Positions 10,006-52,817 of a stretch of DNA of 53,920 bases are shown here, one piece after another. Source of the DNA: Elusimicrobia bacterium CG_4_9_14_3_um_filter_62_55 (GTDB lineage Bacteria > Elusimicrobiota > Elusimicrobia > UBA1565); contig PFUL01000197.1 in NCBI GenBank assembly GCA_002790095.1, positions 1 through 53,920 of the forward strand, in the 5' to 3' direction. Made by a program: the position numbers and the translations under genes. Position 1 is the first letter of the stretch, and each line of letters begins with the position of its first letter. The notes below the pieces were generated by a model. The model made no database searches. It was not told the DNA's origin and worked only from the letters and a program-made list of their open reading frames with translations.

Positions 10006-10010
10006 AAAGG

Positions 10011-34496: not shown

Positions 34497-34988
34497 ATGA
34501 CCATACCTCCCGGCCTCCCGAAACCGCCCGCGCCGCGCACGGCGTTCGTCACCAGCCTCGGATGGACCGGCCTGATCGGCGGCGCGCTCAGCGCTCTGAC
34601 GGGCGTCATGGAATGGTTCGCCGCCCGCCCGTTCGCCGAGCAGGGGTTCATCGACATCGTCCTCAAACTCAAGCAGTACGCCGTTCTCTCCTGGGTCGGC
34701 GCGATTCCGACTCTGATTTTTTCCTGGGGCGTACTGCACCGGCGGGAATGGGGGCGCAAGGGGATGCTGGTTCTGATCGCCGTCGCGGTCTTGGCGCATT
34801 TGGCGCTGCTCCCGACGCTGCGTCAGGCCTTCGCCGGCGCGGGAGAACTCGCGCCGGGATCGCTTCTGGAAGCCGTCCTTAATACCGCGAAGTGGACGAC
34901 CTACGGCGCGCTGGCGGTCGCGACCGCGGTCATGCTCTGGCTCGGCCGCAAGCTCGCGACCTCCCCGGTTAAGGACGAATTCTGCTGA
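34497..34988 (+). CDS. Four-helix membrane protein of unknown function
   Basis: 163 residues from the ATG at 34497 (a TTG at 34476 is in frame but lacks support). There are four hydrophobic segments, about 20-40, 60-78, 85-107 and 130-150, including VTSLGWTGLIGGALSALTGV, LSWVGAIPTLIFSWGVLH and GMLVLIAVAVLAHLALLP. I do not recognise the family. Its last codons (PVKDEFC) and stop lie inside a repeat that reads, on the other strand, as the C-terminus of AroQ. The natural 3' end may therefore have been shaped by recombination. Confidence 0.75.
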   Translation: MTIPPGLPKPPAPRTAFVTSLGWTGLIGGALSALTGVMEWFAARPFAEQGFIDIVLKLKQYAVLSWVGAIPTLIFSWGVLHRREWGRKGMLVLIAVAVLAHLALLPTLRQAFAGAGELAPGSLLEAVLNTAKWTTYGALAVATAVMLWLGRKLATSPVKDEFC

Positions 34989-34993
34989 GCAGC
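34942..34993. repeat. aroQ-3'-end repeat, copy 1
   Basis: 52 bp that recur at 36214-36265 with only two mismatches. The last 28 bp (34966-34993) are identical to 50723-50750, the true 3' end of aroQ. The core contains GGACGAATTCTGCTGAGCAG. On the minus strand it reads LLSRIRP-stop. Confidence 0.95.
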
Positions 34994-36213: not shown

Positions 36214-36265
36214 TCGGCCGCAAGCTCGCGACCTCCCCGATCAAGGACGAATTCTGCTGAGCAGC
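36214..36265. repeat. aroQ-3'-end repeat, copy 2 (hybrid junction)
   Basis: 50 of 52 bp match copy 1 at 34942-34993. Its right flank continues as an AroQ-like C-terminal coding sequence on the minus strand, whereas its left half resembles the 3' end of the membrane-protein gene at 34497-34988. Confidence 0.93.
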
Positions 36266-36282
36266 CGCCGCATCGCTTCGCC
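36241..36282 (-). pseudogene. Remnant of an aroQ 3' end
   Basis: The minus strand reads GEAMRRLLSRIRP-stop; the intact AroQ ends GEALRRLLSRIRP. The nucleotide differences are mostly silent (GAA/GAG, CGG/CGC), apart from Met/Leu and the stop (TGA/TAA). That is the pattern expected of a displaced homologous aroQ tail and not of chance. It lies 3 bp before the stop of the downstream beta-barrel gene. Confidence 0.8.
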
Positions 36283-36285
36283 GCC

Positions 36286-38199
36286 TTAGAAGCTGAAGGT
36301 GGTTCGAACGTTCACGCCGTAGGTGGCGGTGTCGCTGGCTGGGGTGATCCTGTCGTTGGAGGCGGTCATGAAGCCGCCCAGCGTCAGGCCGAGTGATTTC
36401 GCGACCTTCAGGGTTGCCTGCAAGTTCAAGTTCGTGTCCTGCCGATCGGCCGGCGCGGCCCCGTCGTCATCTTCGGTGTCGGTGAAGGATACGGACCCCT
36501 GAAGGGAGAAGCGCCCCGAATACAGGTCCGCGCTGAAGGAACCCGACAGCGTGTTCGAATGCAGTTTTGAGCCGTCCTTCTCGTCGCGGGTGATATTCGT
36601 CGTTTCACCGAGCGTGGCCGATAAGCGCTCGTTGAATTTCCAATTTCCCGAGATGTTGAAGGTGTTGGTCAGAAGGTTGTTGGCGGCGCTTGTGCGGTCG
36701 GTAAACTTGGATCGCTGGTAAGAGAAGTTGACGCTGCCCCCTTCCCAGGCCTGATTCAGTCCGACAGAGGTCCCGTCCGTCCTGTTGTCCTGGGTGCTGA
36801 GCGGCTCGCCATAGGCTCGATTCAGGGTGTAGCCCAATGTCAGACGCGTCCGCGTCGGGAAACTGGTCTCGGCGTTGGACCCCAGCGCGCGCTGGCGGCT
36901 CGTGGTTTTCGCCGGGTCGCTTGCCAGGTTGTCCCGGGACTGGCTTAAGCTGTTGTTTAGAGTGATCCAGTCCCACGGCCTCAGCATCAGGCCGCCTTCA
37001 TGCGTGTAGCGGTCCTTTGAGACCCCGGGAGCCGCCAAGTTCACAAATTGGGCGCCGTTGCGGGACACCGTGCCCGTCACCGACCAGCGCGGCTGCGTGA
37101 AGCCGGTCGCTATGCGCCAGGCGTTATCGGTCACCGCCGCGGCGGTGGAGGTCTTGTTTGCCTCGAACGCGCTGTACTGCCAGTCGCCCTCGACTTTCAG
37201 GTTCTCGCTCGCCGCCCACGCGATCCCGCCGCCTGCCGCCCGACTGCGCGCCGGCAGAAGGCTGGGGCCGGGTGCGGCGAGGGAGCCCGGGGAGTCTTCC
37301 ACCTGCGCGTAATTGCCGCGCAGTATTAGATTGCCGGGCAGGTTAAACGAGCTCTGCGTGCCGTACATCAGCCGCTCGAACACCCCGTCAGTGGCCGCAG
37401 CGACCTGAGCGGCCACCGCATCGATCACCCACTTCGCGGACCCCAGCTTGATCTCGCGGGATTTTATCAGGGCGCCGCGCACGCCGGAGCCCGAGACGGA
37501 CAACGGCGAGAAGTTCGGGGAAACGTCGCCCAAACCGATGTCCGCATAGGGCGCATGGTAGTTGAACAGAAAAGTGCGGAAATCATAATTTTTTTTCTGG
37601 TCGTGGATCGTGTTGGCGTTGAGTTCGAAAGGAGCCTTGTTCACGGTGCCCGACAGATTGACGCTCGTGTCGGCCTGCCAGTCGTTGGGCCCCGTGTCGT
37701 TGCGGTAGCCGACCACAACGTTGCCGCCCACCGTGATGGGAAACGGCGAGGGGCGCGCGGCACCCTCAGGCACGGATATCTGCGGAGTCACCGGGAAGGA
37801 CTTGTCCTGGCTCTGAACGATGCGCTGCTCGTTATGAACGATGAACACGCGAAAGGTGTAGTCCCCGGAGTACTGGATGGGCACATCGAACTTCAGGTCC
37901 ATCGGGAGGCTCCCCCCGGGAGTTACGGCCGCGGTCGGCTTGAAGCGTTTTGTGGACGCGAGATACTTCCCCTTCTTGTCGTAGACCTGAGCGATGAGAT
38001 AGGTCTTGTTGACCTCCCACGTCTCGTTGCCCTGGTTGACCGCCAACACGCGGAAGAACACCGTCCCGCCCGCGTTGACGGGCAGAGGCTCGGCGTTGGT
38101 GAACATAAATTGTCCCGTGTCCGCGGCCCACGCGGGCACGGAGAGGGATAACAAGAGCGCTAGGAGCGCCCCACTAGAAGACGACGAACCGCGCTTCAC
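36286..38199 (-). CDS. Outer-membrane beta-barrel protein of the surface operon
   Basis: 637 residues with a GTG start overlapping the giant gene by 26 bp. It has a signal peptide (ALLALLLSLSVPAWAA). Residues about 28-135 form an Ig-like domain (TVFFRVLAVNQGNETWEVNK, YSGDYTFRVFIVHNEQRI). From about 150 the protein is a chain of alternating, aromatic-ended beta strands (GNVVVGYRND, LFNYHAPYADIGLGDVSP, NLILRGNYAQVED, SVNFSYQRSKFTD), ending in VRTTFSF with a terminal Phe as in outer-membrane barrels. It could anchor, secrete or display the giant protein encoded just upstream. No named family was recognised. Confidence 0.82.
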   Translation of the reverse strand: MKRGSSSSSGALLALLLSLSVPAWAADTGQFMFTNAEPLPVNAGGTVFFRVLAVNQGNETWEVNKTYLIAQVYDKKGKYLASTKRFKPTAAVTPGGSLPMDLKFDVPIQYSGDYTFRVFIVHNEQRIVQSQDKSFPVTPQISVPEGAARPSPFPITVGGNVVVGYRNDTGPNDWQADTSVNLSGTVNKAPFELNANTIHDQKKNYDFRTFLFNYHAPYADIGLGDVSPNFSPLSVSGSGVRGALIKSREIKLGSAKWVIDAVAAQVAAATDGVFERLMYGTQSSFNLPGNLILRGNYAQVEDSPGSLAAPGPSLLPARSRAAGGGIAWAASENLKVEGDWQYSAFEANKTSTAAAVTDNAWRIATGFTQPRWSVTGTVSRNGAQFVNLAAPGVSKDRYTHEGGLMLRPWDWITLNNSLSQSRDNLASDPAKTTSRQRALGSNAETSFPTRTRLTLGYTLNRAYGEPLSTQDNRTDGTSVGLNQAWEGGSVNFSYQRSKFTDRTSAANNLLTNTFNISGNWKFNERLSATLGETTNITRDEKDGSKLHSNTLSGSFSADLYSGRFSLQGSVSFTDTEDDDGAAPADRQDTNLNLQATLKVAKSLGLTLGGFMTASNDRITPASDTATYGVNVRTTFSF

Positions 38200-41100
38200 A
38201 GGCGGTATCCTCCTTCCCGGAGATCCACATACGCATCGTATACTTGCCCGGGGGCGTCCCTGCGTTAAGGCCGAAGGTCACCTTGCTCGGCCCGACGCCG
38301 TCGGCATCAGTGCCTTCGCTGTTGCTCTGCGAGGCAATCCACGCCACCTCCCCCTGGAGCGAATCGTCATCCTCCGCATCCTTGACCTTCGAGGCCAGAT
38401 TGGTGATTTTATCGACGTCCTCATCGTACTCCAGGCCGATCACATTGGAGACGTCCTTGCCGAGCGCGGTCTGGGCGGCGCCTCCTGCCGTCTTCTTGAG
38501 GACATCGCCGACGTTATCGCCTTTCACGGCGCTCTTGACGCCGGCGGAAAGGGCGCCGAGAGCGATCATGTACTTATCGTTGGTCCCGATGCCCGGCGAG
38601 TCGAGGCCGATCGCCTTGGAAGCCGTCTCGCCCAGGGCCGTCGCGGCGGCACCCTTCGCGGCGCCCGCGAAGACATCCCCGACATTCCCCCCGTTCGCCG
38701 CCGCGGTAAGCCCCCCGGAAAAGGCCCCAAACGCCAGATCGAACTTGCTGGTCGACCCCGCCGAGAAGCCGCCCAAATCCGAATATTTGGACTTAATGGT
38801 CCTTTCCGCGGACTGGACCGTGAAACCGGGCGCACTCAACTGGTACGGGTTCGGCTCGCTGGCAATCATGCTGGCCTGCAAACTCGAGCCCTCCGGCAGC
38901 CCCTTACAGCTCATCTTGAAGGTGCCCCCGGGCCGAGGTGCGAGCGGGGTCAACGTAGCGGAGTACTTCGTCTTCGGCTCTTTCACCGACGGCGGAGCCG
39001 TCACCGTGAGCATGAGGGTCGACAGATTGTTCTTGGGCGCGCGGTCCGGACGATCAAGGATGCCCGCTTTCACTTCGTACTTGCCGGCCGTATGCGCCGG
39101 GATGCGGAACATCCGAGAGACTTTGCCGTTCTCTGGGATCGACGGGATGGTCACGTCAGGATCGATGGTGTGGCCGTCCATCCGCAGGCCCACTTTGACG
39201 TTCTTCTCGTCGAAATTGCTCTGGCTATGGATCGGCAGCTTGGCCTCGTAGTAGTTGCCCCTGCGGGTGAGGACCAGCGCGCCGGCGTAGAGCTCGCGGT
39301 AGGGGAGTTCCACGTTGACCGCTCCCGAGTTGTTCTTGGGATCATCGTCATCGTACTCGATCAGCGTCGCGCCCACGCCCCCTCGCCATATGACATCCGG
39401 TTTGACCGGGACGTAGAACCTCCCCACGAAGGATCCGTTCGCTTGGCGTTGGGCCGAGGCACGCCACTCTTTGTTGGGGTCGGTGGTATTGATCCTCAGC
39501 TTCATCTCTTTGAGCGGGTAGTTCCCGCTGATGCGGTCGATCTGGACGGTGAACGGGACCTGCCCCCCCGAGATCTCGCCGGGGTGCATCACCGGAGTGC
39601 CGACCTTATAGTCGTAGCCGAGCTTGAACCTCGCGGACATCTTGTTGTTGCCGTGGTCGTCGTCGTTGTAGTTCATGTGCGCGACCGCGATGTGAGCCTT
39701 GCCATCGACGGGGCGCTTGATCAGGAAGTCCGCCACCGTGGACTCCTTGGCAGCCAGGGAAGCGATTGTCTTCTCCACCTTCTGGTCGATCTTCCCTTCC
39801 AGATAGACGCTCAGGGGGATGTCCTTCTCGGTACGGTCGCCGATATTGGCCACTGTGACCTTGACCGAAGACTTCCCATCCGTGAGCCCCCCGAGCTCCA
39901 GCTTCGTGATCTTCGCATCGAAGACGGGCCGTGCAGGCAGGTCTCTGAAAGAAGACGTCAGGCTGTCGTCATTGGGGTTCGCGTCCTCGAAATCCACGAT
40001 CATCGCGGTAAAGGTCCGCGCCGTTTTGGTCTTTTGGATAGGCACATCGATCATGGCGCTGCCGCTGCCGTCCGCGCCCAGGGTCACCTGGATGTCCGGG
40101 CCGAGGTTCTTACCGTTCTCCCGGACCCGTACCGGGATCTTGCCCTGAAGCTCCGGGCCCCATTCCTTGGCCAACTCGACCTTGACGGGGACCTTGTTCC
40201 TCTCCCCTTTGGCCCACACTGCGGCCAGCTCGGCGGCCGTAGGAGCCGCAATCCTGGCGACCTTGTAGTTCCGCTTGGCGGCGAGCGCGCGGTTCTCCGC
40301 GGTCGGCGGCGGGAGGGCCGTATTGTACGGCTTCGCGGGGACGTTCACGGACTTCTCGAAGACGACTTTATTGTCCCGCCACAACTTCAGTGTGAAATCC
40401 CAGGGCCCGGTGGACATGATGGCGCCCGCATGCGGGTACATGTGGGCCTTCAGGGGATATCCCTCCACTTCGGCCGAATCTCTCCCCCCCGGCTCCTGGT
40501 ATTCTCCGAATCTCGCCACACCGGGTCCTTCAAACGACATCCTGTAGCCCCTTTTTGTGAAGCCCTGGGCGAACTCGGGGAACGCGAAGAAGCAGTTGTT
40601 GCCCGGCGAGGGGTCATGGACCCGGGCGGCGCCGATGGTGACCGGCGGACTCGGGATACTGCGGGTCTTGGTCATGACGTTGTCGCCTGGGGTTGCGTCG
40701 CTGTCCATGTTCAGCCCCCCCTTGAAGTCCCCAGGCCCCACCTTGGCCGTGAGCTGCACGTTCTCCCCCCAGCCTGCCTCGACCGTGAAATCGGCAGAGG
40801 CCGCCCCGTTGAAGGTCGGTTTCATCTCCAGCTTGCCGTTGCCGGCCTTCAGAGCGATGAAGTAAATGTTGTCCTTATAGAAGACGCTGCGATTGGACAC
40901 ATGGACGGTCACCGGGATGCTCACGCGCCTGTTCGGGAGGATGATCATGTCCCCGATCTCAATATTGGCCACTCCAAGGTCTTTGGCTTCGAAAATCGTC
41001 GAAAGGGCCGCCTGGTCATCGGCGCTCTTGTCGTCCTTTTGCCCCTCCAGGACGGCAATCAGATTATAGGCTCCCCTCGCGCCCTTATAATTGTTCGGGA

Positions 41101-44100
41101 TATCGAAGGAGACCTCGCGGGACTCACCCGGCTGTAATTTTTCGTCGAGCTTCTTCTTGCCGTACTCCTTGTCCGGCTCCTCACCCGAGGGGGCCATCCA
41201 CCCCCCTTCGGCGGGTTTGCGGGTGAGGGAGACGGTGGGCGCGTCTTCGGTCACGACACCCGTGTTCTTGACGGTCACACTCACTTCGAAGCCCAGAAAA
41301 GACGGGCTCCTGAAAGCGTCATTCTTCACCGCCACCTTGGTGACAGCCAGGTTCCATTCCGGCCGATCAGGCAGCGTCAACGAGAATCCCTTTTTGTTGT
41401 CTTCGGGGTTGAGCTCTCCTTCCAAGGAGCCTAATACCTGCGCCGTCCCCTTGACCGGACCGCCGACAGCGGGCAACGGCACATTCACCATGAGTTTCTG
41501 CGACTTTCCGGGCTTGATTTCCGGCTTATCAGACGGGTCCGAGACATATTCCGCCTCGCCCAGCGTCAGGCTGACGTGGACATCCTTGACCAGCGTCTTC
41601 CCGTTGTTCTGCACCTCGACGATGACGGGGGCCGTGCGCTTCTTAGTGTCGATCCCTTTCCCCAGGGTCACCTCGCCGATGGACAGATCCCAGGGAAGGC
41701 GGGGCACCGTGACGTACTTCTTGTTGTTGCTCGGATCGGCATCTTCGGTATCCTGCGAGGGCCCTACCCAGACAGAGACCTTCTGGGACGTCTCTTTCAG
41801 CGGGAAGTTGATCGTCACCGTCTTCTGAGCGTCCTTCTTGAGCTTCGGATACTCTTTGGCCTTAACGTGGTTCGGGCTCACGCCCAACAGAGGCGCCAGC
41901 GACTCGCCATCGCCCAGATTCTTGATCACCACATCGATCGGGACCGTCTGCGTCTTGGGGTCGAAGTCATCCGGCCGCACCGTCGCGCTGAGGATGGCCA
42001 GGTCGAGGCGCGGCGGCTTGGGCGGGAACTGGAGCACCAAGACCTTCAAGTCGTTCTTATTGTTCTGGTCCTTGACCTCGGCCTTGATCGCTCCGAGTAT
42101 CACGGCCCTGTTGTCCTTGTCTGGCTGGACCTGGACGGTCCAATAGGTTTCCTGCTCCGGGCGGAGGGTCCTGGGAGTGGTGTACTTGTGCGTGTGCAGT
42201 CTGCCTTCCACCATAATGATTGGAGGCTCGACCGATTCCTCTATGCCGCCGAGATTCTTGACTGTGATGTTCACCGGCCACTTCTGCTCGACCTGACTGA
42301 AGTACGCCTTCTTGTTGCTGGTCTCGGGTGCCGTGATCTCGGTTACCGCTAGATCGCGCTTGGGCATATCGATCTCGGCGGTGTTATTGTTCGGCGTGAG
42401 ATCCTTGCTGTCGGGATTGCCCGCCTCTTCGCCGATATCCACGATCGCCTTGAGCTTCTTGCCTTTGGTCCAAGGCAGATGGAAGGTGAGGGAGCGCGCG
42501 CTGTAGCTGCCCGCTTCGATGGTGGGCAGCTTCACGGTCCGCAGTTCATATCCATCCACTTCGAACCGGATCGACGCACGCTCTTCCTTCACCGTGCCGG
42601 CCGCCTCGATCTTCACGCGGATCTGCATCGGACCGTCTTCCAAGTCGCCGACATCCGTACTGCCTTCTCCGACAGCCATGTCGGTGATCTTCAGATCATG
42701 CTTTTCCGGCATGATTTTCCGGAAAAAAGCGGACTTCAGCCCAGGCACCTTCGCGGTCTTTTCGGAAGTCGTGACCTCTTTGCCGTCTGTATCGACGACC
42801 GCCATGTGGAACAAGACGGTCTGGTCATCGGTCTTGGGGAGGTCGAACTTCACGGTCCCCTTCCAAGGCTGGTCGGTCTTGGAATCGATCCAATCGCTGT
42901 ACTGAGGATTCTCGAGGCCCTTCAGGGCAGCGGGGTCGCCCTTCCCCTTCACCATGAACCGGTATCGGCCCTTCATGGGCTTGGGGCCGCCATAGTACGT
43001 CATGCACTCTATCGGGAAATCATTCCCGCCGCCCAGCGCCTTATTGAGGGCCGCAAACTTTTTCTTGATTGATTCGTTGCTGAATATGCCCCAGCCTTCA
43101 TCTTCCTTTCCCCGCGACTTGAAACTCAGGCTGTCATACTCGGTCAGATCCGGGACCCCGGTGATGGCCGCGAACCAGGAGGCTGGAAGCTTGACGGTCT
43201 TCTCCTCCGATTTCAGATTCGTCAAAACCGGGTCCTCGGGATCGACCGAGAGCTGCCCGTAGAACTTGACCTCAGCGGGAGCCTCCAGAAAAGGCAAATG
43301 GAACACGACGGACTTGTCCGCGCCATTCCTTTCCAGATCCGTGATATCCTGGCTCTCGATCTTATCCCCGGACCAGTCGCTGGTCGGCACCAGGGTCACC
43401 GTGATCTTCGGCTCCTTTTTCGGTCCATCATTGACCACTTTGACGGTGATCGGGACGCCGCCTAAAGACGCCTCTCCGATGATGATCTCCTTAATAGAAA
43501 GGTCGCGCGGCGGCGGCGGGGCGGGGTCGCCGATCAGCTTCAGCGTGACGGTGTCGTTGTCGGGATTGGCGTCCTTTTCCGTCTGTCCCTTGTCGTCCTC
43601 CAGGACGACCGTCGCCGTCAGGACGTCTCCGTTGGCGATCGGATCCCGCTCGAGCTTGGCGAAGATCGTCCGACCGGTCTCCGAGGCCGCTTCCTGCGCG
43701 GCTATGGGAGCATCCGTGACTTTCGACTCGCTCGTCAGGGGGTCTCCATCGGTCGAGAGGGAATACTTCACCGAGTAGCGCGGCGCCTGCACCCCGCCCC
43801 CGTTCCTGACGGCGACGTCGGCTTTTAAGGTGATCGTCTTGTCCGCCGCTCTCTCGACCTTCGGATTCTTGAGTTCGACCAGTAGGTCGGGCGCGTTCCG
43901 CGCCGCGAGCGGCCCGCCGAGCGTCTTGGTGAAGGTATCGTTGCTGGGGTCGGCGTCCTTGACCGGCTTGCCGTTGCCGTCGAGCAGAGTGATGGTTGCG
44001 CTCAGCGTGGACATTTCCCTGATCGGGTCCCGGTCCAGCGCCGCGAAGAGGGTCTGGGACCGCAGCCCGCTCGAACCTTTGGCCTCCAGGGGCCTGTCGG

Positions 44101-47080
44101 TGATAATGCGACTGACTTCGACAGGATCTTTCCCCGCCGTGATCGCGTATTTCAGCGCGTACCGCCCGGCCGTCGCGTCGCCGTCGTTGAGCAGAGTGAC
44201 GTCGGCGCTCAGGTCGAACTTGCTCCCCGAAGGTTTGACGCTGAAGTTCTTCAGCGCGACCCGCAGGTCCGGACCGGGCGTCACCTGGGCCTTCGATTTC
44301 CTGGTGGGAATCTCCACCAGGATGGTTTCAGATTTTGTTGACGCAGATCCCAATACAAGATGGGCGATAAAGGGAAGCGTGACCCGGTCCAGGTCCTTTT
44401 CAAGATCGGTGATCCGTGAGGTCGAAGGCATCGAAAAATCTAAAGACGATTCCTCCCCGGCCTTCAGGCATGTGATTTTCGGTGGATTCGCGCCCCAATT
44501 TTGAACCAGCTCCCGGGCGAATGGGTCGATGAGTCCGGGATTGGAGTTCAGTTCCGTGAGCATTACAGCGTTGATATCTACGAAGGCGATACTCACGTCC
44601 GCAACGGGCGTCGAGCCGGAGTTCTTCACGGGGAGTGATAGAACTTTTCCCCTCAGGGTGGGCTTCGACATGCTGAATTTCGCGGGGTCGGGAGTCGCTG
44701 TCGCATCCGAACATGCCTGGGACCCGGCTGCCGGGGCCGGGGGGGAGATGACGCGGGTGATGCCCCGGGCTACGGGGTTCTGAGCGGCACCCTTCACGTG
44801 GGGCTGTAGATAGGCGCGCCACTGCCGCGGGATCCCGTCGTTCTTAGGCGTCGGAAGCCCTTTGAAGGCGATCTTCCAGGCCTTCTTGCCTCCCGAAAGA
44901 TTGAGCGGCTCGCTGAACCGGGGCTTGAAGGTCTTGTCCAGAACGGCCCTCTTGGTCTTCGCGTTGTACCACCAAAGCAAGAGCTGCACCTTGTAGACGC
45001 CTTCGGCGTTGCCGCTCTTCAGGCTCACATCGGCCGTGACATCTTGGCTCTGTGCGCCGGCGGCGGCGGCCGAGGCGGTCATGCTCCAGGTCGGGGCTGC
45101 GGCCTTGGCCGGCACTTGTTCCGGTTTCGCCGCGGTCCGGCTGGCAGCGACCGCAGGGTGCAGGGTGACGCGCTTGAAATTATTTTCGCTGCTGGCCTCG
45201 GACCCTGAACTCTCGACTGAAACCACCGCCTCGACGTTTCCCGTGCCCAGCTTCGCCCTGGGCACCTGGAACATCCCGGTGAAGGAATCTTTTTCCGCTT
45301 CGACACCCAACGACGCGACGGGTAGATCGGCAGCCAGTTCCTCCTCGTCCGCAAGCCGCTTTATTCGGACCGTCGCGCCGGTCGCCTTGCGCCCAATGTT
45401 GCGAACGATGACCTTCACGGGCACGTAGTCCGCTCCTGCGACGGCGTCCGCCTGACCCGCGTACGCGACGGCCAGGTCCAAGCCGGAAACCGCCGCGGTC
45501 GACGGCTTCCGCCGTCTCGGGATGTCGAGGGATACCGTCTTGATGCCGGAGTGGTCCTTATCCTCGGCGACATCCCAGGAAGCGACGTAGTCAGCATTAC
45601 GAATATCGGACGGCTCCCGAAATGGGATATTGAGGGTGACGTCCGTCGTCTCTCCGGAGCCGATCGAGTCGACGGTCTCTGAAGGGCTCCCCGCCGGATT
45701 ACCGGCCACCGGCTTGAGCGAGACGCGAATCGGTCCCGCGCCGTAACCCAGGTTGTTGGCGAGGGTTATCTTCACCGGCGCATACGCCCCGACCGCATTC
45801 GGGTTCTCGACCCATTCCCGTTGGACGGGCTGCCGAGCCACCGTCGTGATCCCCAGGCTGCCCGCCGCCTGCGATATCGGTTGAGTCGAACTATTCTCGC
45901 ATCGATTTCCGGAGAATCCGCTCGTACAAGCGCATCTCAAGACGGTCCCCGCCTGTGTGCAGAGGCCGCCGTTTCGGCATGGATTCGAAGCACAGAGGTC
46001 GACCGTCTCATCCGGGATCTTAAGCTCGACGGTCTTCGTGTTGTCGGTTGGGGAATCGTCGTAATAGGCCAGCGAGGCGGTCACCATGTACGGCTTGTGA
46101 AGGCCCACCCCGGAAAGATCGAGCCACGACCTAAACGCCAGGGTCGTTTTTCCCGAGGGAGAGAGGTTCGCGACGTTCGCCGTGAAACCGGAAAAACCGA
46201 GCGCGTTGAGAGGGGTGCCATTAATGCTCGCCGTGACTTGGAACGGCCCCTCCGACTGGCCTCCCTGATTGGCGACCTCCACCTTCGCCGTGATCTGATA
46301 TTGAGAACCGTCCTTTCTGAAGGAAGCATCGACCTTATTTACGGCCACGTTTCGCGAATCCGGCAAGGAGTCGGCCTTGATCTTGAATGACCGGTAGGTG
46401 TCGGGACGCGCGATGACGTTCCCGGAGCCATCGAGTCCTTCAACCGTCCAGTAGTAAAGGGTTCCGCCGGACAAACGATTCTGCACCAGCGTATTCGCGT
46501 CCTGGCGGATGTCGACCAGGGACTGGGTCACCACCTGGTTGATCTTGATCCTGGAGAACGCGGTGTCCTCGGCCACCTTGAGCCGGTAACTCGTAGCGGC
46601 GGGGTCCCAGCGGAATCGCAGAGGAGAGCCGGACACCTCCGCCATGTCCGCCGGTTCCTGGAGGATGATCTTCGGGTCCCGGACCTGCACGCTGGCCGTG
46701 CCGCTGACCGTCGTCCCGCCATTGGACGCGGTGCCGGTGAGGATGTAGGTTCCCGACTTTGTAAAGAAGCGGCTGACCAGAAGCCCGCTCAAGGTGGCGC
46801 TCGTAGTCCCAGCAGTGCCGGCCGGGGCCGTGTTGCCGGACTGTTGGAACACGGTGGCTCCGTCCGGATCCTGGATCGCGAAGGAAAACGCGATATTCCC
46901 GACCCCGGCCCCGTCGCTGGTGACTTGCATCGACAGCGTGACGCGGTCCGTCGCGAGCAGTAGAGAAGCGTCCGTGCCGTTGGACTGCGTCATCCGCGCC
47001 TGCGGACCGGAGATGCCGGCCCAGGCGACGGCCGGGGAGAGGAGGAAGGCGAGGCCGAAGGCCGGGAGGAATCGCCTCAT
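38174..47080 (-). CDS. Giant secreted CARDB-repeat protein with an EGF-like domain
   Basis: 2,968 residues (roughly 320 kDa) from the ATG at 47080 (ATGA overlap with the upstream gene). The signal peptide is MRRFLPAFGLAFLLSPAVAW. An Ig-like domain (about 25-120) and an Fn3-like domain (about 125-225) are followed by an EGF-like domain near 358-396 with six cysteines (DLCASNPCRNGGLC, then CACTSGFSGNRC). About 15 or more CARDB-type beta-sandwich repeats follow. They typically open with DLAV/DLSI, contain VxVxNxG, and end in acidic DxDPxNN-like turns (DADPSNDT, DANPDNDT, YDDDDPKNNS). The C-terminus has two Gly/Ala-rich homologous segments and ends CEARFVVF. It is likely a filamentous surface adhesin. 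Confidence 0.88.
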   Translation of the reverse strand: MRRFLPAFGLAFLLSPAVAWAGISGPQARMTQSNGTDASLLLATDRVTLSMQVTSDGAGVGNIAFSFAIQDPDGATVFQQSGNTAPAGTAGTTSATLSGLLVSRFFTKSGTYILTGTASNGGTTVSGTASVQVRDPKIILQEPADMAEVSGSPLRFRWDPAATSYRLKVAEDTAFSRIKINQVVTQSLVDIRQDANTLVQNRLSGGTLYYWTVEGLDGSGNVIARPDTYRSFKIKADSLPDSRNVAVNKVDASFRKDGSQYQITAKVEVANQGGQSEGPFQVTASINGTPLNALGFSGFTANVANLSPSGKTTLAFRSWLDLSGVGLHKPYMVTASLAYYDDSPTDNTKTVELKIPDETVDLCASNPCRNGGLCTQAGTVLRCACTSGFSGNRCENSSTQPISQAAGSLGITTVARQPVQREWVENPNAVGAYAPVKITLANNLGYGAGPIRVSLKPVAGNPAGSPSETVDSIGSGETTDVTLNIPFREPSDIRNADYVASWDVAEDKDHSGIKTVSLDIPRRRKPSTAAVSGLDLAVAYAGQADAVAGADYVPVKVIVRNIGRKATGATVRIKRLADEEELAADLPVASLGVEAEKDSFTGMFQVPRAKLGTGNVEAVVSVESSGSEASSENNFKRVTLHPAVAASRTAAKPEQVPAKAAAPTWSMTASAAAAGAQSQDVTADVSLKSGNAEGVYKVQLLLWWYNAKTKRAVLDKTFKPRFSEPLNLSGGKKAWKIAFKGLPTPKNDGIPRQWRAYLQPHVKGAAQNPVARGITRVISPPAPAAGSQACSDATATPDPAKFSMSKPTLRGKVLSLPVKNSGSTPVADVSIAFVDINAVMLTELNSNPGLIDPFARELVQNWGANPPKITCLKAGEESSLDFSMPSTSRITDLEKDLDRVTLPFIAHLVLGSASTKSETILVEIPTRKSKAQVTPGPDLRVALKNFSVKPSGSKFDLSADVTLLNDGDATAGRYALKYAITAGKDPVEVSRIITDRPLEAKGSSGLRSQTLFAALDRDPIREMSTLSATITLLDGNGKPVKDADPSNDTFTKTLGGPLAARNAPDLLVELKNPKVERAADKTITLKADVAVRNGGGVQAPRYSVKYSLSTDGDPLTSESKVTDAPIAAQEAASETGRTIFAKLERDPIANGDVLTATVVLEDDKGQTEKDANPDNDTVTLKLIGDPAPPPPRDLSIKEIIIGEASLGGVPITVKVVNDGPKKEPKITVTLVPTSDWSGDKIESQDITDLERNGADKSVVFHLPFLEAPAEVKFYGQLSVDPEDPVLTNLKSEEKTVKLPASWFAAITGVPDLTEYDSLSFKSRGKEDEGWGIFSNESIKKKFAALNKALGGGNDFPIECMTYYGGPKPMKGRYRFMVKGKGDPAALKGLENPQYSDWIDSKTDQPWKGTVKFDLPKTDDQTVLFHMAVVDTDGKEVTTSEKTAKVPGLKSAFFRKIMPEKHDLKITDMAVGEGSTDVGDLEDGPMQIRVKIEAAGTVKEERASIRFEVDGYELRTVKLPTIEAGSYSARSLTFHLPWTKGKKLKAIVDIGEEAGNPDSKDLTPNNNTAEIDMPKRDLAVTEITAPETSNKKAYFSQVEQKWPVNITVKNLGGIEESVEPPIIMVEGRLHTHKYTTPRTLRPEQETYWTVQVQPDKDNRAVILGAIKAEVKDQNNKNDLKVLVLQFPPKPPRLDLAILSATVRPDDFDPKTQTVPIDVVIKNLGDGESLAPLLGVSPNHVKAKEYPKLKKDAQKTVTINFPLKETSQKVSVWVGPSQDTEDADPSNNKKYVTVPRLPWDLSIGEVTLGKGIDTKKRTAPVIVEVQNNGKTLVKDVHVSLTLGEAEYVSDPSDKPEIKPGKSQKLMVNVPLPAVGGPVKGTAQVLGSLEGELNPEDNKKGFSLTLPDRPEWNLAVTKVAVKNDAFRSPSFLGFEVSVTVKNTGVVTEDAPTVSLTRKPAEGGWMAPSGEEPDKEYGKKKLDEKLQPGESREVSFDIPNNYKGARGAYNLIAVLEGQKDDKSADDQAALSTIFEAKDLGVANIEIGDMIILPNRRVSIPVTVHVSNRSVFYKDNIYFIALKAGNGKLEMKPTFNGAASADFTVEAGWGENVQLTAKVGPGDFKGGLNMDSDATPGDNVMTKTRSIPSPPVTIGAARVHDPSPGNNCFFAFPEFAQGFTKRGYRMSFEGPGVARFGEYQEPGGRDSAEVEGYPLKAHMYPHAGAIMSTGPWDFTLKLWRDNKVVFEKSVNVPAKPYNTALPPPTAENRALAAKRNYKVARIAAPTAAELAAVWAKGERNKVPVKVELAKEWGPELQGKIPVRVRENGKNLGPDIQVTLGADGSGSAMIDVPIQKTKTARTFTAMIVDFEDANPNDDSLTSSFRDLPARPVFDAKITKLELGGLTDGKSSVKVTVANIGDRTEKDIPLSVYLEGKIDQKVEKTIASLAAKESTVADFLIKRPVDGKAHIAVAHMNYNDDDHGNNKMSARFKLGYDYKVGTPVMHPGEISGGQVPFTVQIDRISGNYPLKEMKLRINTTDPNKEWRASAQRQANGSFVGRFYVPVKPDVIWRGGVGATLIEYDDDDPKNNSGAVNVELPYRELYAGALVLTRRGNYYEAKLPIHSQSNFDEKNVKVGLRMDGHTIDPDVTIPSIPENGKVSRMFRIPAHTAGKYEVKAGILDRPDRAPKNNLSTLMLTVTAPPSVKEPKTKYSATLTPLAPRPGGTFKMSCKGLPEGSSLQASMIASEPNPYQLSAPGFTVQSAERTIKSKYSDLGGFSAGSTSKFDLAFGAFSGGLTAAANGGNVGDVFAGAAKGAAATALGETASKAIGLDSPGIGTNDKYMIALGALSAGVKSAVKGDNVGDVLKKTAGGAAQTALGKDVSNVIGLEYDEDVDKITNLASKVKDAEDDDSLQGEVAWIASQSNSEGTDADGVGPSKVTFGLNAGTPPGKYTMRMWISGKEDTACEARFVVF
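38425..38745 (-). repeat. Duplicated Gly/Ala-rich segment near the C-terminus of the giant protein
   Basis: Two homologous segments of about 45 residues, one beginning FDLAFGAFSGGLTAAANGGN and the other YMIALGALSAGVKSAVKGDN. Both continue NVGDV(F/L), then a Gly/Ala-rich run, TALG, (K/N)-(A/V)IGL. The composition suggests amphipathic helices or a membrane-interacting region unlike the beta-rich remainder. Confidence 0.75.
45895..46005 (-). other. EGF-like domain within the giant protein
   Basis: Six cysteines have EGF spacing: C-x4-C-x5-C then, after nine residues, C-x-C-x8-C (LCASNPCRNGGLCTQAG, then RCACTSGFSGNRCEN). It is inserted between CARDB-like repeats 1 and 2. EGF domains are widespread in animals and sporadic in bacteria. 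Confidence 0.85.
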
Positions 47081-49587
47081 CGAACCACCGCCAACTTCTT
47101 CGTCGCGTCGGCCTGAGTGCCCGTGGCCTGGCCGACCACCTTGACCCGGACCAGATAAATTCCCGGGGCCACCGCCCGCCCGCGGTTGTCGGTCAGGTCC
47201 CAGCCCCAAGATACCTCGGCGCCCGAGCGACTCGCCTCGGCGCCGGAAAACTCACGCACGAGTGAACCTGTGATATCGAAGATGAACACTCGGGCATCGA
47301 TCGCCGACACCTTGGACTCGAACCGGATCGTTGTCCGGTTCCTGGCCGGGTTCGGGTAAAAGTAGAACGCCTTAGGGTCGAATAGCTTTGCGTTGGCACC
47401 CGCGGCCGAGGCGTCATTGAAGGCCACCGCGGCCGACTCGCCTTCCGCCAACCGCACCGTTATTGTCTCGCCGAATTCGACGCCGTTAAACGGCCGGAGT
47501 TGGTAGGTTCCCGGAAGGAGCTTCGGCACGGTGAAGCCTCCCTGCGAGTCCGTCGCCACCCTCGCGGCCAGTTGGCCCCTGTAAATCTCAACGAAGGCCC
47601 CGGAGGGCACGGCTGCGGCCGAGGCCGCGGCGCGGGACCCCGCCGGCGAGGACCCCTGCAAAGACAGCGTGCCGGTGATGCTCCCCAGAGTCACACTGAG
47701 CCCCAGTCCCATGGCGATGCCGGTGGTGCCCACCTGATGCCCCGACTGGGAAACGATAGACGTCGCGTCGCCGTCGCTCAGCTTCCACGAAGCTTGGATC
47801 GTATAGTTGATCCCGGTGTCGGTGGACAGTCCCGTGAAGCTCCAATTTCCGCCCGCGTCCGAGAACACCGTCGCAACCGTGCCCCCTGAGGCCGACAGGG
47901 TGATCTGCACCAGATTGACCTCTTGGTTCGGGTTGACCGTCACCGTCCCGCTGATCGCGTCGGTCGGCGCGGCGCCAGCCGCGGTGACGGTAGAGGTAGG
48001 GGTGGTGAAGTTGGTGTCGGTGCCGCCGTGGCCGGTTGCTTTCACCCGGGCATAATAAGTCGCGGCGCTGGTCAAAGAGAAAAAAGTCGCCGATGTGAGC
48101 AGCGTCGCACTCGAAGTCAGGGTGCCGCTGAAGTCGCTGGCGGTCGAGATTTGGGCGGTGTAGGAAGTACCCGACGGGTTGCCGTTGGCCGCCCAGGTGA
48201 AGGTGATCTGAGTGGAGCTATTGGCCACCACCGCGGGAGTGACCGGGACGGCCGCCTCGGTCGCCGTGGTCACGCTGGTGTCGTACGCCGTAGCCGTTCC
48301 GCCGTGGCCGACGGCACGGACCCGCAGGTAATAGGTGGTGTTGGGGGTCAGACCCGCAAACTGCGCGCTGGCAGCCAAGGTCATGCTCGACGCCGCGAGA
48401 GACCCGAAGTTCGAGGCGGCCGAAATCTCGGCTACGTACTCCGTCGTTGACGGATTCGAGTTCGCGTTCCAGCCCAGGGCGACGGTCGCCTCGCCCACCG
48501 ACGACACCGCCGTCCCGGTCGGCGGGTTGGCCAGGGTGGCCGAAGCGGCGAATTGGTTGTACGCCGTGGCGGTACTAGGGCCGAGAGCCTTGACCCCGAA
48601 GTAATAGGTGGTATTCGGAGAGAGGCCGGTAAGTGCCGCGTTTGTCTCGATCTCAGAGCTGGTGTTCGACGAAACGGCGACCCCCGAAGGAGGGTTGGCG
48701 GCATCGGTCGATGCGATCAGCGAATAGCCGGTCGATCCCAAGGTAAGCGCCCAGTTGGCCGTGGCGGAGCTCGCATGAAGCCCCGTCACGCCCGCGGTGC
48801 TGGGCGGCAAGACGTAGTGGGTGAACGTGGTCGAAGAGAAGCCGACCGTAAAGACCGACTGCACGTTGCCCGCCGTATCGAAGCCCTTGGTAACGATGTT
48901 ATAGGTGTGGCCGCTGACGAGCGTTGCGCCGAAGGACTGCGTGAAGAAGGGCCCTACGATGGTGGCGGTGCTCCAGAACTCGGCGGAACCAAAGCCCGCG
49001 CCCCCGTTCCAGTATTCGCCGGTGGAAAGGTCCTGGACGCGGACCTGAATAGTCGAGATGTTGAGGTCAACGTAGATTCCGCCGATCTCGGTGGTCGTTA
49101 GACGGCTCGATCCGTGCACGGGCGTTGCGACGCTTGTGTCTGGGGGAGTGGCGTCAATGGTGAAGATTTTGGTGGCGGGGGTGGAATCGGTATCGGCAGC
49201 GTCGTCCACCGCTCGAGCTTGGATGACGAAGTTCCCCTCCATTCCCGTGAGGGCGGCGGGACTGACCGAATCCGTCCAGGTCTCAGCGGCGGAATCGAAG
49301 GTTCCGTCCGCCGGTGTGGCGTTAAACCAGCCGTCTTCGGGATTGAAGTAGGACAATAAAAAGTCGAATTGAAAAACGCCGTCCCAGCACGAGTTGGTGA
49401 TCGTTTCACAGAGGCGGACCTGAACGTTGGAGACTGTGCCGTCGGCATCGGCCGCGGTCCCCGAGACGGTTACAAGGCTGGACATCACGTCGGCACTAGG
49501 CTGTTGAATGGCGGTATCGGGCTCCACGGCATGGACCGGCACCGCCAAGGCCAACCCCATCGCTAAAATCCCGATTCGCCGCTTCAT
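47077..49587 (-). CDS. Secreted Fn3-repeat protein with a FlgD/type-IX-like C-terminal domain
   Basis: 836 residues with a signal peptide (ILAMGLALAVPVHAVE). Bacterial Ig-like modules (about 25-270) are followed by at least three fibronectin type III repeats, recognisable by LSPNTTYYFGVKALG, LTPNTTYYLRVRAVG and LTSAATYYARVKATG. Then come carboxypeptidase-regulatory-like modules (SDAGGNWSFTGL, TDSQGGFTVPKLLPGTYQLR). The C-terminal about 90 residues read FYFYPNPARNRTTIRFE, VFIFDITGSLVREF, GRAVAPGIYLVRVKV and end KKLAVVR, the FlgD-Ig/type IX sorting-domain pattern. It is coupled by 4-bp overlaps to the PorV-like gene before it and the giant gene after it. Confidence 0.87.
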   Translation of the reverse strand: MKRRIGILAMGLALAVPVHAVEPDTAIQQPSADVMSSLVTVSGTAADADGTVSNVQVRLCETITNSCWDGVFQFDFLLSYFNPEDGWFNATPADGTFDSAAETWTDSVSPAALTGMEGNFVIQARAVDDAADTDSTPATKIFTIDATPPDTSVATPVHGSSRLTTTEIGGIYVDLNISTIQVRVQDLSTGEYWNGGAGFGSAEFWSTATIVGPFFTQSFGATLVSGHTYNIVTKGFDTAGNVQSVFTVGFSSTTFTHYVLPPSTAGVTGLHASSATANWALTLGSTGYSLIASTDAANPPSGVAVSSNTSSEIETNAALTGLSPNTTYYFGVKALGPSTATAYNQFAASATLANPPTGTAVSSVGEATVALGWNANSNPSTTEYVAEISAASNFGSLAASSMTLAASAQFAGLTPNTTYYLRVRAVGHGGTATAYDTSVTTATEAAVPVTPAVVANSSTQITFTWAANGNPSGTSYTAQISTASDFSGTLTSSATLLTSATFFSLTSAATYYARVKATGHGGTDTNFTTPTSTVTAAGAAPTDAISGTVTVNPNQEVNLVQITLSASGGTVATVFSDAGGNWSFTGLSTDTGINYTIQASWKLSDGDATSIVSQSGHQVGTTGIAMGLGLSVTLGSITGTLSLQGSSPAGSRAAASAAAVPSGAFVEIYRGQLAARVATDSQGGFTVPKLLPGTYQLRPFNGVEFGETITVRLAEGESAAVAFNDASAAGANAKLFDPKAFYFYPNPARNRTTIRFESKVSAIDARVFIFDITGSLVREFSGAEASRSGAEVSWGWDLTDNRGRAVAPGIYLVRVKVVGQATGTQADATKKLAVVR

Positions 49588-50570
49588 CTAAATCTCGCGG
49601 TGAACGAAATTTGATGGGCGTTGCCCAAACTGCCGAAGGGGGTGATGGCATAGTCGAGCCGATGCCCGAAAACACGCAGTCCGAAGCCCCCCACCAAACC
49701 GACCAAGCGTTCGACTCCCGAGCCCGAGCCCCCACCCAAACCGCTTCCCGTTAAAGCATCTCGAGACTCGGCGGAGCGAAAAAGGTATCCGCCGCGAAGG
49801 ACCAACATCCCTCCCGTGCCGTATTCTATCCCCGTCTTAAAGGAAGGACTTGATTCTCCTCTAAGCGATTCCAACTCCACCGACAGTCGCAGAAGCGCCG
49901 CCGGAGCGAAGTCGACGGAGACTCCCGTGCGCAGGATTCGAGGCAACGGGAAGGACCGGTCAAGAAATCTGACGCCCGGCCCCACATTGGCGAGCGCCGC
50001 GCCCGCTTGGATGCGGCCCCGGCGGTACATAAACCCCAGGTCGGCGGCGAAGGTGGAGGCCGTAAAGGTGTCGATATTCTGGCGGATAAACTTGCCCGTC
50101 ACACCCAGGCTCATCTTCCCGTTCAAGGGCTGGGCATAGGAAACCGCCGCGTAGAAATCGCTTGAGCCGAAGGTACGGTCGGGCTCGGGGGTGTTGCCCG
50201 TGCGCGCCTCGATCCCTCCCACCGAGAGGCGAGTGGCCGAGACGCCGAAGGCTTTGCGAGCCGAATCCCCGGCAGAGCCCAGCGGATGCACGTAGGCCAC
50301 GCGATCGACGGCGATGTCTTGAACATGGATCACATGCTCGGCCATCAGTTCGCGAGACAGCAGGCGGGACATCCCGGCGGGGTTCCAGTAAGTCGCGCTC
50401 GCATCGTCCGAGAGCGCGGTGAAAGCGTTCGCCATCGCGACGGAACGCGCTCCGGAACCTAAACGCAGGAACGCCAACGATGTGGTTCCCGCGGCGCGGC
50501 AAGGCTGAACCAGGGTGTAAAATAGAAAAATCGCCGCCACAAGTCGACGGCGCAAGGGATGTGACCCCAT
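49584..50570 (-). CDS. PorV/PorQ-like outer-membrane protein
   Basis: 328 residues with a signal peptide (LVAAIFLFYTLVQPCRA). The family signature is GSGARSVAMANAFTALSDDA followed by SATYWNPAGMSRL. A FadL-like barrel pattern follows (FGVSATRLSVGGIE, AVSYAQPLNGKMSLGVTGKF, LRGGYLFRS) and a terminal FTARFR strand. In Bacteroidota, PorV shuttles substrates of the type IX secretion system to the attachment complex; relatives occur in other phyla. As first gene of the surface operon, followed directly by a protein with a type-IX-like C-terminal domain, a similar role is plausible but unproven. Confidence 0.87.
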   Translation of the reverse strand: MGSHPLRRRLVAAIFLFYTLVQPCRAAGTTSLAFLRLGSGARSVAMANAFTALSDDASATYWNPAGMSRLLSRELMAEHVIHVQDIAVDRVAYVHPLGSAGDSARKAFGVSATRLSVGGIEARTGNTPEPDRTFGSSDFYAAVSYAQPLNGKMSLGVTGKFIRQNIDTFTASTFAADLGFMYRRGRIQAGAALANVGPGVRFLDRSFPLPRILRTGVSVDFAPAALLRLSVELESLRGESSPSFKTGIEYGTGGMLVLRGGYLFRSAESRDALTGSGLGGGSGSGVERLVGLVGGFGLRVFGHRLDYAITPFGSLGNAHQISFTARFR

Positions 50571-50579
50571 ACCGGACTA

Positions 50580-50608
50580 AATTTATCACGACCCCCAATT
50601 TTAATCAA
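50580..50608 (-). promoter_or_regulatory. Promoter of the four-gene surface operon
   Basis: On the minus strand TTGATT (50603-50608), 17 bp, TAAATT (50580-50585), then 9 nt to the ATG at 50570, giving a leader of about 2-3 nt. The intergenic DNA around it is AT-rich. Confidence 0.65.
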
Positions 50609-50722: not shown

Positions 50723-50750
50723 CGGTTAAGGACGAATTCTGCTGAGCAGC
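50723..50750. repeat. aroQ-3'-end repeat, copy 3 (native aroQ end)
   Basis: 28 bp identical to 34966-34993, covering the AroQ C-terminal codons LLSRIRP, the stop and the first bases beyond it. It lies at the promoter-side edge of the surface operon; copy 2 lies at the other edge. Confidence 0.95.
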
Positions 50751-51175
50751 CGGCGCAGCGCCTCGCCGTAGCCGGCGGGCCCCTTCCCCATGACGCACCC
50801 GACGCAGACCGACCGGATCACCGATTTCCGCCGGAACGCCTCGCGTTTGCGGATGTCCGAGAGGTGCACCTCAAACGCGGGCAGCGCGACCGCCGCGATC
50901 GCGTCGCGCAGCGCGTAGGAATAATGCGTGTACGCGCCCGCGTTGATCAGCAGACCGTCGGCCCAGCGGCGCTGCGCGTGCAGTAAATCGATCAATTCCC
51001 CTTCCCCGTTGCGCTGAAACGCGCGAACACGCGCGCCGAGACGCGCCCCTTCGCGCTTAAGCCCCCGGTCGATCTCGACCAAGGTCGTCGTCCCGTAGAC
51101 GGAGGGATCCCGTTCTCCGAGCAGGTTCAAATTAGGCCCGTGCAGCACGAGGATGTTGAGCGTCTTCTTCTTCAT
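50726..51175 (-). CDS. aroQ: 3-dehydroquinate dehydratase, type II
   Basis: 149 residues, normal length for the dodecameric type II enzyme. ILVLHGPNLNLLGERDPSVY includes the catalytic loop Arg and Tyr. RAFQRNGEGELIDLLHAQ, LLINAGAYTHYSYALRDAI (Asn/His) and FEVHLSDIRKREAFRRKS (catalytic His) follow. It converts 3-dehydroquinate to 3-dehydroshikimate. The start overlaps the aroB stop (ATGA). It is the last gene of aroC-aroK-aroB-aroQ, and its 3' end is duplicated at 36.2 and 35.0 kb. Confidence 0.95.
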   Translation of the reverse strand: MKKKTLNILVLHGPNLNLLGERDPSVYGTTTLVEIDRGLKREGARLGARVRAFQRNGEGELIDLLHAQRRWADGLLINAGAYTHYSYALRDAIAAVALPAFEVHLSDIRKREAFRRKSVIRSVCVGCVMGKGPAGYGEALRRLLSRIRP

Positions 51176-52260
51176 GCGCCCTCCACGGCGTCGATCGCGG
51201 CGTCGATCTCCGCGGGCGAGACGTCGGCGACGCGCACGGGGTTTCCGACGCCCTTGAGCAGCACGAACACGTTTCTTCCCCCGACGGCCTTCTTGTCGAG
51301 CTTCAGCGGCGCCAGGAGCCCGCGCCGCGACAGTCCCGCCGGAATGCGAACCCGCGGGAGGCGCGCGAGCAGCGCGTCGATCTCGCGCTTATCCTTCGTC
51401 CAGCCCCGGCCGAAGGAAATCGCGGCCGCGGCCCGCATCCCCCACGCGACCGCCTCGCCGTGGCGGACCCGGCCGTAGCCCGACGCCTTCTCCAGCGCGT
51501 GACCCAGCGTGTGCCCGAAATTCAGAAGTTCGCGCGTCCCCGAAAGATCGCGCGTGTCGGCGGCGACGACCCGGGCCTTCAGCGCGGCGCAGCGCGCGAC
51601 GACGGCTTCGAGCGTTCCCTCATCGAACGCGCAGAGGCGGTTCCAGTCGGCGCTCAGACGCCGCGCGAACGCCCGGTCGAAGAGCAGCGCGTATTTGACG
51701 ACCTCGCCGAGTCCGGAGAGGAATTCCCGCCGCGGCAAGGATTTCAAAACGGCCGTATCGCAGACGACCAAGCGCGGCTGATAAAACGAGCCGATCGCGT
51801 TCTTCGCGAGCGGATGGTTCACCGCCGTCTTCCCCCCGATCGCGCTGTCGACCTGGGCGAGCAAGGTGGTCGGGACCTGGATCAACGGGACGCCCCGATA
51901 ATACGCAGAAGCGGCGAAGCCCGCCGCGTCCCCGACCGTCCCCCCCCCGAGGGCCACGACCGGCGTACGCCGCTCGACGCCCGCGCGCAGCAAAAACCCG
52001 AAGAAGCGCTCCACCGACGCGAGACTCTTCGCCGCCTCGCCGCGCGGCAGGGCGAAGAGCTCGGCCTTCCATCCGGCGGCGCGAAACGCGCGCTGCGCCC
52101 GAACCCCGAGCGAACGGGCCAAAAACGAATCCGTCGCGATGACGCAGCGGCGCGCGCGCGACAGGTCCCTGTGCATCAGCGCCGGCAGGCGGTCGAGCAG
52201 TCCCGCGCCGACCCGGACGGGGTAGGCGTCGGGCTCGGTTTTCACGATGATAGTCTTCAT
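51172..52260 (-). CDS. aroB: 3-dehydroquinate synthase
   Basis: 362 residues from the ATG at 52260 (ATGA overlap with aroK). Family motifs: VVALGGGTVGDAAGFAASAY (NAD binding), VPLIQVPTTLLAQVDSAIGG and KTAVNHPLAKNAIGSFYQP, GLGEVVKYALL, and the zinc-binding histidines of LLNFGHTLGHALE and VRHGEAVAWGM. It forms dehydroquinate from DAHP, the second shikimate step. An in-frame extension to 52497 overlaps aroK and is rejected. It is coupled by 4-bp overlaps on both sides. Confidence 0.96.
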   Translation of the reverse strand: MKTIIVKTEPDAYPVRVGAGLLDRLPALMHRDLSRARRCVIATDSFLARSLGVRAQRAFRAAGWKAELFALPRGEAAKSLASVERFFGFLLRAGVERRTPVVALGGGTVGDAAGFAASAYYRGVPLIQVPTTLLAQVDSAIGGKTAVNHPLAKNAIGSFYQPRLVVCDTAVLKSLPRREFLSGLGEVVKYALLFDRAFARRLSADWNRLCAFDEGTLEAVVARCAALKARVVAADTRDLSGTRELLNFGHTLGHALEKASGYGRVRHGEAVAWGMRAAAAISFGRGWTKDKREIDALLARLPRVRIPAGLSRRGLLAPLKLDKKAVGGRNVFVLLKGVGNPVRVADVSPAEIDAAIDAVEGA

Positions 52261-52817
52261 CTCAGGCCGTCCCTCCCATAACCCCGTCGATGGACGGCAC
52301 GGCGGGGCTTCCGCCCCGCCAGCCTCCGCGCGATGCGTTCGGCGATCTCCGTCGGGGATCCGAGCGCGGCGCGGACCCGGAAATGCGCCGCGCGCGCGTA
52401 CAGCGGACGCCGCTTCGCGAGCAGCGCCTCGGCGTTCCCCCACAGGGGGCGGACCGCCGCGCCCCGCCTTCCGACGCGACGGCGCAGCGCCGTCCATGGC
52501 GCCTGCAGGTAAACGACCGTGCCGGAGCGCCGCATCAAGGCCGTGTTTGCGCGCAGGCTCACCGCTCCGCCGCCGACAGCGATCACCGCGTCGCCAAGGC
52601 GCGCCGCGCGGGCCAGCGCGCGGGCTTCCCGCTTCCTAAATCCCGCCTCGCCTTCCGCCGCGAAAATGGCGCGCACGGACTCTCCCGCGGAGCGAACGAT
52701 CTCCCGGTCCAAATCCAAAAAGGTGCGGCCGAGCCGCCGTGCCAAAATCACCCCGACCGTCGTCTTGCCGCTTCCCATGAACCCCACCAGGAAAACCAAC
52801 CCCGTCGCCTCAGACAT
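52257..52817 (-). CDS. aroK: Shikimate kinase
   Basis: 186 residues from the ATG at 52817, overlapping the aroC stop by 8 bp. Walker A is LVFLVGFMGSGKTTVGVILA. FLDLDREIVRSAGESVRAIF holds the shikimate-binding Asp and the adjacent helix. FRKREARAL and AVIAVGGGAVSL follow, and a lid region is seen near RPLWGNAEALLAKRRPLYAR. It phosphorylates shikimate. The longer frame from 52868 lies within aroC and adds no homology. The C-terminal 20 residues are unusually basic. Confidence 0.94.
   Translation of the reverse strand: MSEATGLVFLVGFMGSGKTTVGVILARRLGRTFLDLDREIVRSAGESVRAIFAAEGEAGFRKREARALARAARLGDAVIAVGGGAVSLRANTALMRRSGTVVYLQAPWTALRRRVGRRGAAVRPLWGNAEALLAKRRPLYARAAHFRVRAALGSPTEIAERIARRLAGRKPRRAVHRRGYGRDGLR

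Follow-up and report, generated by a model that had tools for sequence, protein, structure and literature searches.

A candidate outer-membrane module of a proposed ion-driven envelope machine in Elusimicrobiota

Introduction

What task joins a PorV-like outer-membrane protein, an Fn3-domain protein, a CARDB protein of giant size and an outer-membrane barrel in one operon of Elusimicrobia bacterium CG_4_9_14_3_um_filter_62_55? The operon (genes g1 to g4) lies on contig PFUL01000197.1 of assembly GCA_002790095.1, and the 53,920 nucleotides analysed (positions 1 to 53,920) are called the window here. Our comparative analysis leads us to favour, with some reserve, the reading that this operon supplies the outer-membrane and surface parts of a machine of the Elusimicrobiota that spans the envelope and is driven by ions. 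In a conserved gene set of the phylum, a FliF/FliG rotor, stators of the flagellar class and surface proteins are found together, and from sequence comparison such a machine may power surface proteins or gliding in a new way. If so, it would be a second, independently assembled case in which an ion-driven motor is coupled to a system of surface proteins, beside GldLM and the type IX secretion system (T9SS) of Bacteroidota, and its stator would be a natural one built with two different B subunits. No description of such a system, nor of a non-flagellar FliG system in Elusimicrobiota, was found in the literature searched, the coverage of which was partial, so that an earlier description is possible.

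A phylum-wide barrel family linked to motor genes

The barrel encoded by g4 had been taken, in an earlier sequence-only reading of the window, as private to this operon. In fact it has relatives in 28 of 199 genomes of the phylum (18 genera) and belongs to a phylum-wide Elusimicrobiota family; a second copy is found on contig C198 of the same genome. A collection of named genomes, scanned with a closer subset of the barrel alignment (the full alignment being too divergent), yielded 40 barrel loci, and all titles that name a group say Elusimicrobia or Elusimicrobiota, a few giving only 'bacterium'.

Gene order is recurrent across these 40 loci. Upstream of the barrel are a CARDB protein, a large Fn3 protein that ends in a sorting tail and has at least 4,444 residues in L100, often FecR and often PorV. 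The motor genes, for the FliF-FliG fusion, MotA, a pair of MotBs and a tetratricopeptide repeat (TPR) protein, are convergent with the barrel or, in one family (L040, L045), follow it downstream in the same direction. These companions of the barrel were missed in the sequence-only reading. Its proposal that the four window proteins belong together holds: genes for the tailed Fn3 protein, CARDB, PorV and the barrel stand in series at L066, L068, L070, L072, L073 and L088, which is the set of the window, but with PorV not in the lead and with FecR added at L072. Such joint operons in other Elusimicrobia answer the objection that homologues of the four genes might never co-occur, and because the four parts recur in one operon we consider them to belong together.

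The barrel and the motor are also distributed alike. A cognate fusion (above 300 bits) is present in 26 of the 199 genomes and a full-length barrel in 28; 25 genomes have both, and the 26th fusion genome (G150) carries a barrel fragment at a contig edge. The Fisher test gives p of about 1e-27, a value uncorrected for phylogeny that overstates the evidence because the genomes are related. Genomes with barrel and fusion span families f1, f4, f7, f9, f11, f13, f18 and f22 (and f23 if G150 is counted), and for 19 of the 29 barrel copies a cognate fusion is found no more than 3.6 kb away. Nine named genomes in which no complete motor is visible beside the barrel were searched for the fusion: eight of these have a strong cognate fusion (368 to 445 bits), and the ninth has one as a split frame (217 and 53 bits). 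In the genome of the window, the cognate motor stands beside the C198 barrel and consists of FliF/FliG, MotA, one visible MotB and the TPR protein.

Motor proteins

The fusion, FliF(RBM3)-FliG(MC), comprises a signal peptide, an alpha-beta-beta-alpha-beta domain, a long putative membrane-crossing helix, and the middle and C-terminal domains of FliG. It scores 70 bits with FliG_C and 41 bits with FliG_M, and matches FliG of the PDB with E 4.5e-29. Its structural model, only moderate overall (pLDDT 70.7, pTM 0.34), matches FliG in Foldseek and has a weaker match to the FliF RBM3 region.

Two prolines expected in the ion path of MotA are conserved in the consensus of the family. MotA matches flagellar MotA (E 1.8e-54) and PomA (about 1e-40), with no ExbB or TolQ among the structure matches listed, and therefore belongs with the flagellar stators, the class named FIT in PMC12505986. 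A motor of the ExbBD/TolQR type was rejected on the same ground, as only flagellar MotA/PomA structures are matched.

The MotBs have a plug and a peptidoglycan-binding domain, and most copies keep the ion-carrying Asp. Among 31 distinct tandem MotB pairs, 24 have this Asp in both members, 7 in one only and none in neither; in the single-Asp pairs it is replaced by Asn, Gly, Cys or Ala, at either position. MotBs that have lost the Asp occur in L035/L060, L061, L067, L065 (with the partner beyond the contig end), L071, L033, L045 and L103. The 7 single-Asp pairs suggest a heterodimeric stator, the simplest reading of these sequences being a MotB1-MotB2 pair in which one Asp would be enough.

A second type of FliF/FliG-MotA-MotB cluster is present in the genome of the window (L090; contig C106, 1-16000), preceded by genes for a PorV/TPR protein of 583 residues and for a 1,439-residue protein whose tail is T9SS-like. 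Comparable sets occur in L097, L103, L105 and L106. The genome has 7 FliF/FliG-profile matches in all.

The operon in the window

The genes of the operon and their domains are as follows:

49584-50570, minus strand: g1, PorV/PorQ-family outer-membrane protein, 328 residues (NCBIfam NF033709, 159 bits)
47077-49587, minus strand: g2, Fn3-domain protein, 836 residues, with CarboxypepD_reg and a T9SS type-A-like tail
47080-47358, minus strand: T9SS type-A-like C-terminal tail of g2
38174-47080, minus strand: g3, CARDB giant, 2,968 residues (CARDB 132 bits, about 17 repeats)
46010-47080, minus strand: N-terminal ca. 357 residues of g3, homologous to the smaller CARDB protein of the family (blastp E 1e-39 to L026)
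45902-45994, minus strand: EGF-like domain of g3 (20.5 bits, cut-off 21.5)
36286-38199, minus strand: g4, outer-membrane barrel of the phylum-wide family, 637 residues, GTG start
37786-38115, minus strand: N-terminal beta-sandwich domain of g4, residues 29-138 (AlphaFold2 model)
36292-37737, minus strand: 26-strand barrel domain of g4, residues 155-636 (AlphaFold2 model)

The four genes stand in tight series, and the overlaps of 4, 4 and 26 bp reported earlier are confirmed. Their third-position G+C (0.71 to 0.82) is as expected for local coding sequence, and all four proteins have, by inspection, the signal-peptide-like start that had been claimed for them. A single promoter for the operon had been claimed as well and found no support: no sigma-70-like site was found upstream of g1, and counts from the promoter and terminator scan are at chance level. 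The 155-bp gap upstream of g1 is AT-richer (50% G+C vs 62-69%).

The assignment of g1 as PorV-like stands, its score with the PorV/PorQ family being well above the cut-off of 90 bits and below the equivalog cut-offs of PorV and of PorQ; it is 36-38% identical to the PorV genes of corresponding loci elsewhere. Gene g2 matches Fn3 (61 bits) and CarboxypepD_reg (32.7 bits) and is a small relative of the 1,300- to 4,400-residue Fn3 giants of the family. Its C-terminus had been read as either a type-IX-like sorting domain or FlgD_ig; the former is retained (28.8 bits, cut-off 27), while FlgD_ig (21 bits) stays below its cut-off. For g3, described before as a CARDB/EGF giant, the CARDB repeats are clear and the EGF part comes down to a single domain just under the cut-off. 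The family's CARDB protein measures about 420-710 residues outside the window, and because only the first ca. 357 residues of g3 and scattered CARDB repeats match it, the size of g3 appears to be a local elaboration. That the giant is exported by PorV, as had been proposed, is unproven: the sorting tail sits on the Fn3 protein g2, and none is detectable on g3.

Relation to flagella and to type IX secretion

With the flagellar motor the Elusimicrobiota set shares the FliF RBM3-like ring domain, the FliG middle and C-terminal rotor domains, a flagellar-class MotA, and MotBs with plug and peptidoglycan-binding domain. It differs in that FliF and FliG are reduced and fused behind a signal peptide, in the tandem pair of MotBs that is usually present, one member of which sometimes lacks the Asp, and in the linked outer-membrane barrel. 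FliM/FliN were found in none of the 28 barrel genomes, but in G032 and in control genomes; FlhA was found in one of the 199 genomes (G032, which has no barrel match) and not in that of the window, while flagellated controls gave matches. Because these genomes are without FliM/FliN and FlhA, the set is not a flagellum. Flagellar genes were absent from Elusimicrobia in an earlier study as well (PMC7031533). A degenerate flagellar remnant was considered and rejected, in view of the missing FlhA and FliM/FliN, the specific linkage and the conservation in multiple families.

Genome G032 has on contig C2 (about 111,600-127,000) FlhA, FliM/FliN-type domains and a FliG-like match, likely a true flagellar cluster.

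A stator-type motor without a flagellum is also known in the Agl gliding motor (AglRQS) of Myxococcus (PMC13104615). The Agl proteins group with the non-flagellar (GIT) stators (PMC12505986), whereas the Elusimicrobiota MotA matches flagellar ones, and here a FliG rotor is present.

The Bacteroidota T9SS and gliding system (SprA, PorV, GldKLMN, SprB) has in common with the Elusimicrobiota set the PorV family, very large Fn3 surface proteins that carry type-A tails (the T9SS type-A model is matched by all 19 Fn3-protein tails tested), an SprA-like protein in the genome, and an ion-driven motor of the 5:2 class in the same organism. The search for SprA proposed earlier brought a 2,064-residue SprA-like protein on contig C103 of the window's genome, with three matching stretches; 33 of the 34 genomes tested have such a protein, including some without the motor. 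Similarity to PorU was seen in the tail domain only. The Elusimicrobiota motor differs from that of the Bacteroidota in being FliF/FliG-MotA-MotB and not GldLM, which resembles MotAB and is not homologous to it according to a 2026 review (PMC13104615), and the 26-strand barrel family is its own.

At L057, a gene for a C11 (clostripain-family, clan CD) peptidase lies beside the motor operon (9360-10610; the domain was tested in this locus only), and genes of similar size occur in L049, L050, L054, L059, L062, L069 and L075. PorU of the T9SS is a clan-CD peptidase too, and for that reason the C11 peptidase could be its functional counterpart.

Proposed mechanism

Homology, synteny and co-occurrence show the parts of the proposed machine and their linkage: its inner-membrane half consists of the FliF-RBM3/FliG-MC minimal rotor, the flagellar-class MotA, usually two tandem peptidoglycan-binding MotBs, and the TPR protein; the outer half holds the 26-strand barrel with its beta-sandwich, the Fn3 proteins with type-A-like tails, the CARDB protein, often FecR, and PorV. 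The Fn3 proteins would cross the outer membrane by an SprA-like/PorV route and remain at the surface. We infer that these products form a complex in which MotA5:(MotB1-MotB2) stators, anchored to peptidoglycan, draw on the ion gradient to rotate the FliF/FliG ring or put it under strain. Force might be passed to the outer membrane by the periplasmic domain of the ring, by FecR or the TPR protein, or by the barrel's beta-sandwich. The motion would thus reach the barrel and the surface fibres, which could be exported, rearranged or moved along the cell, like the adhesins of gliding Bacteroidota. We put forward only tentatively, and with somewhat more doubt than belief, the full version of this scheme, namely that a stripped flagellar-type rotary motor with a heterodimeric B-subunit stator and no flagellum drives T9SS-like fibres by means of a dedicated 26-strand barrel, giving an undescribed gliding-like motility in Elusimicrobiota. 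The set lacks FlhA and FliM/FliN, which are defining features of a flagellum, and on present evidence it does not qualify as a T9SS; the operon of the window would supply a single module.

Several observations weigh against the proposed machine or against the place of the window operon in it. The barrel genomes G035, G082 and G157 have only lower-scoring FliF/FliG relatives, and the charges of the FliG torque helix are, by inspection, only partly kept. On the T9SS side, the SprA-like protein of C103 scores 130.7 bits, below the curated equivalog cut-off of 200, and GldM was found in none of 30 genomes, though no control genome gave a match either. No motor gene lies beside the window operon, and the barrel encoded there shares only 33% identity with the C198 copy, which is linked to the motor.

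Alternative explanations

The motor might power export and not movement, as part of a T9SS-like system in which a flagellar-type motor takes the place of GldLM, the Fn3 proteins are cargo and there is no gliding. This account fits the PorV family, the type-A tails, the nearly general presence of SprA-like proteins in the genomes tested and the one lineage in which the motor genes have those of a C11 peptidase (clan CD) and of PorV as neighbours. We nevertheless hold it to be unlikely: some genomes with no fusion-motor match (e.g. G007, G034) have SprA-like proteins too, so that export seems not to need the motor, and the distribution of the motor follows that of the 26-strand barrel and not that of SprA or PorV. 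Far less probable still is an ordinary role for the barrel as a porin or transport channel of the MtrB or LptD kind, with no more than an incidental link to the motor genes. The AlphaFold2 model of g4 (mean pLDDT 86.7) shows an N-terminal beta-sandwich followed by a barrel of 26 strands, counted from the listed elements, as in MtrB (the porin of the Mtr complex) and LptD, and the best Foldseek match is MtrB (6r2q_B, E 2.5e-10). The TM-score of this match is however only 0.47 at 8% identity (about 0.25 for LptD), sequence searches of Pfam, NCBIfam and the PDB place g4 in neither the MtrB/PioB nor the LptD family, and the barrel is linked to, and co-occurs with, the motor across many families. 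Membership in MtrB or LptD was rejected accordingly, the likeness to MtrB being one of fold only, and the last barrel does not fall into a known unrelated porin family; such a placement would, on the terms of the sequence-only reading, have told against its case.

The window copy raises a question of its own, as it could be decoupled from any motor: a static display of Fn3/CARDB fibres for adhesion, anchored by PorV and the barrel, with no mechanical link to the C198 motor. The missing adjacent motor speaks for this, and so do the short Fn3 protein and expanded CARDB giant, unlike the family norm, and the divergence of the barrel, which sits on a long branch of the tree outside the clade of the C198 copy and groups with that of RA.bin80 (support 0.88). 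Relatives in the same genus, family and order show only other barrels, 29-34% identical to that of the window (the sole genome of the same genus is 78% complete), and flanking repeats, listed below, suggest a separately acquired module. On the other hand, all four genes are intact, and the closest relative, the barrel of RA.bin80 (G123; 41% identical), is the sole barrel in that genome, whose cognate motor lies elsewhere. We find decoupling rather doubtful, and consider that the window operon is probably a second, motor-less outer module of the proposed machine that would need to borrow the C198 motor.

Origin of the window copy

Three repeats lie at or near the operon's borders:

36238-36283: direct repeat just downstream of the operon, 46 bp at 89%, with 25 bp exact (36243-36267)
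50723-50768: upstream direct repeat, which overlaps aroQ at the gene's 3' end, exact part 50728-50752
34971-34993: third copy of the 23-bp repeat core

The 23-bp sequence occurs three times in the whole genome, always in the window, and two of these copies bracket the operon. This bracketing, with one repeat overlapping the 3' end of aroQ, suggests an insertion; the simplest account of the sequence is that the operon was probably acquired and inserted at aroQ. Adjoining it are shikimate-pathway genes (50726-53913, minus strand) for dehydroquinase II, dehydroquinate synthase and chorismate synthase.

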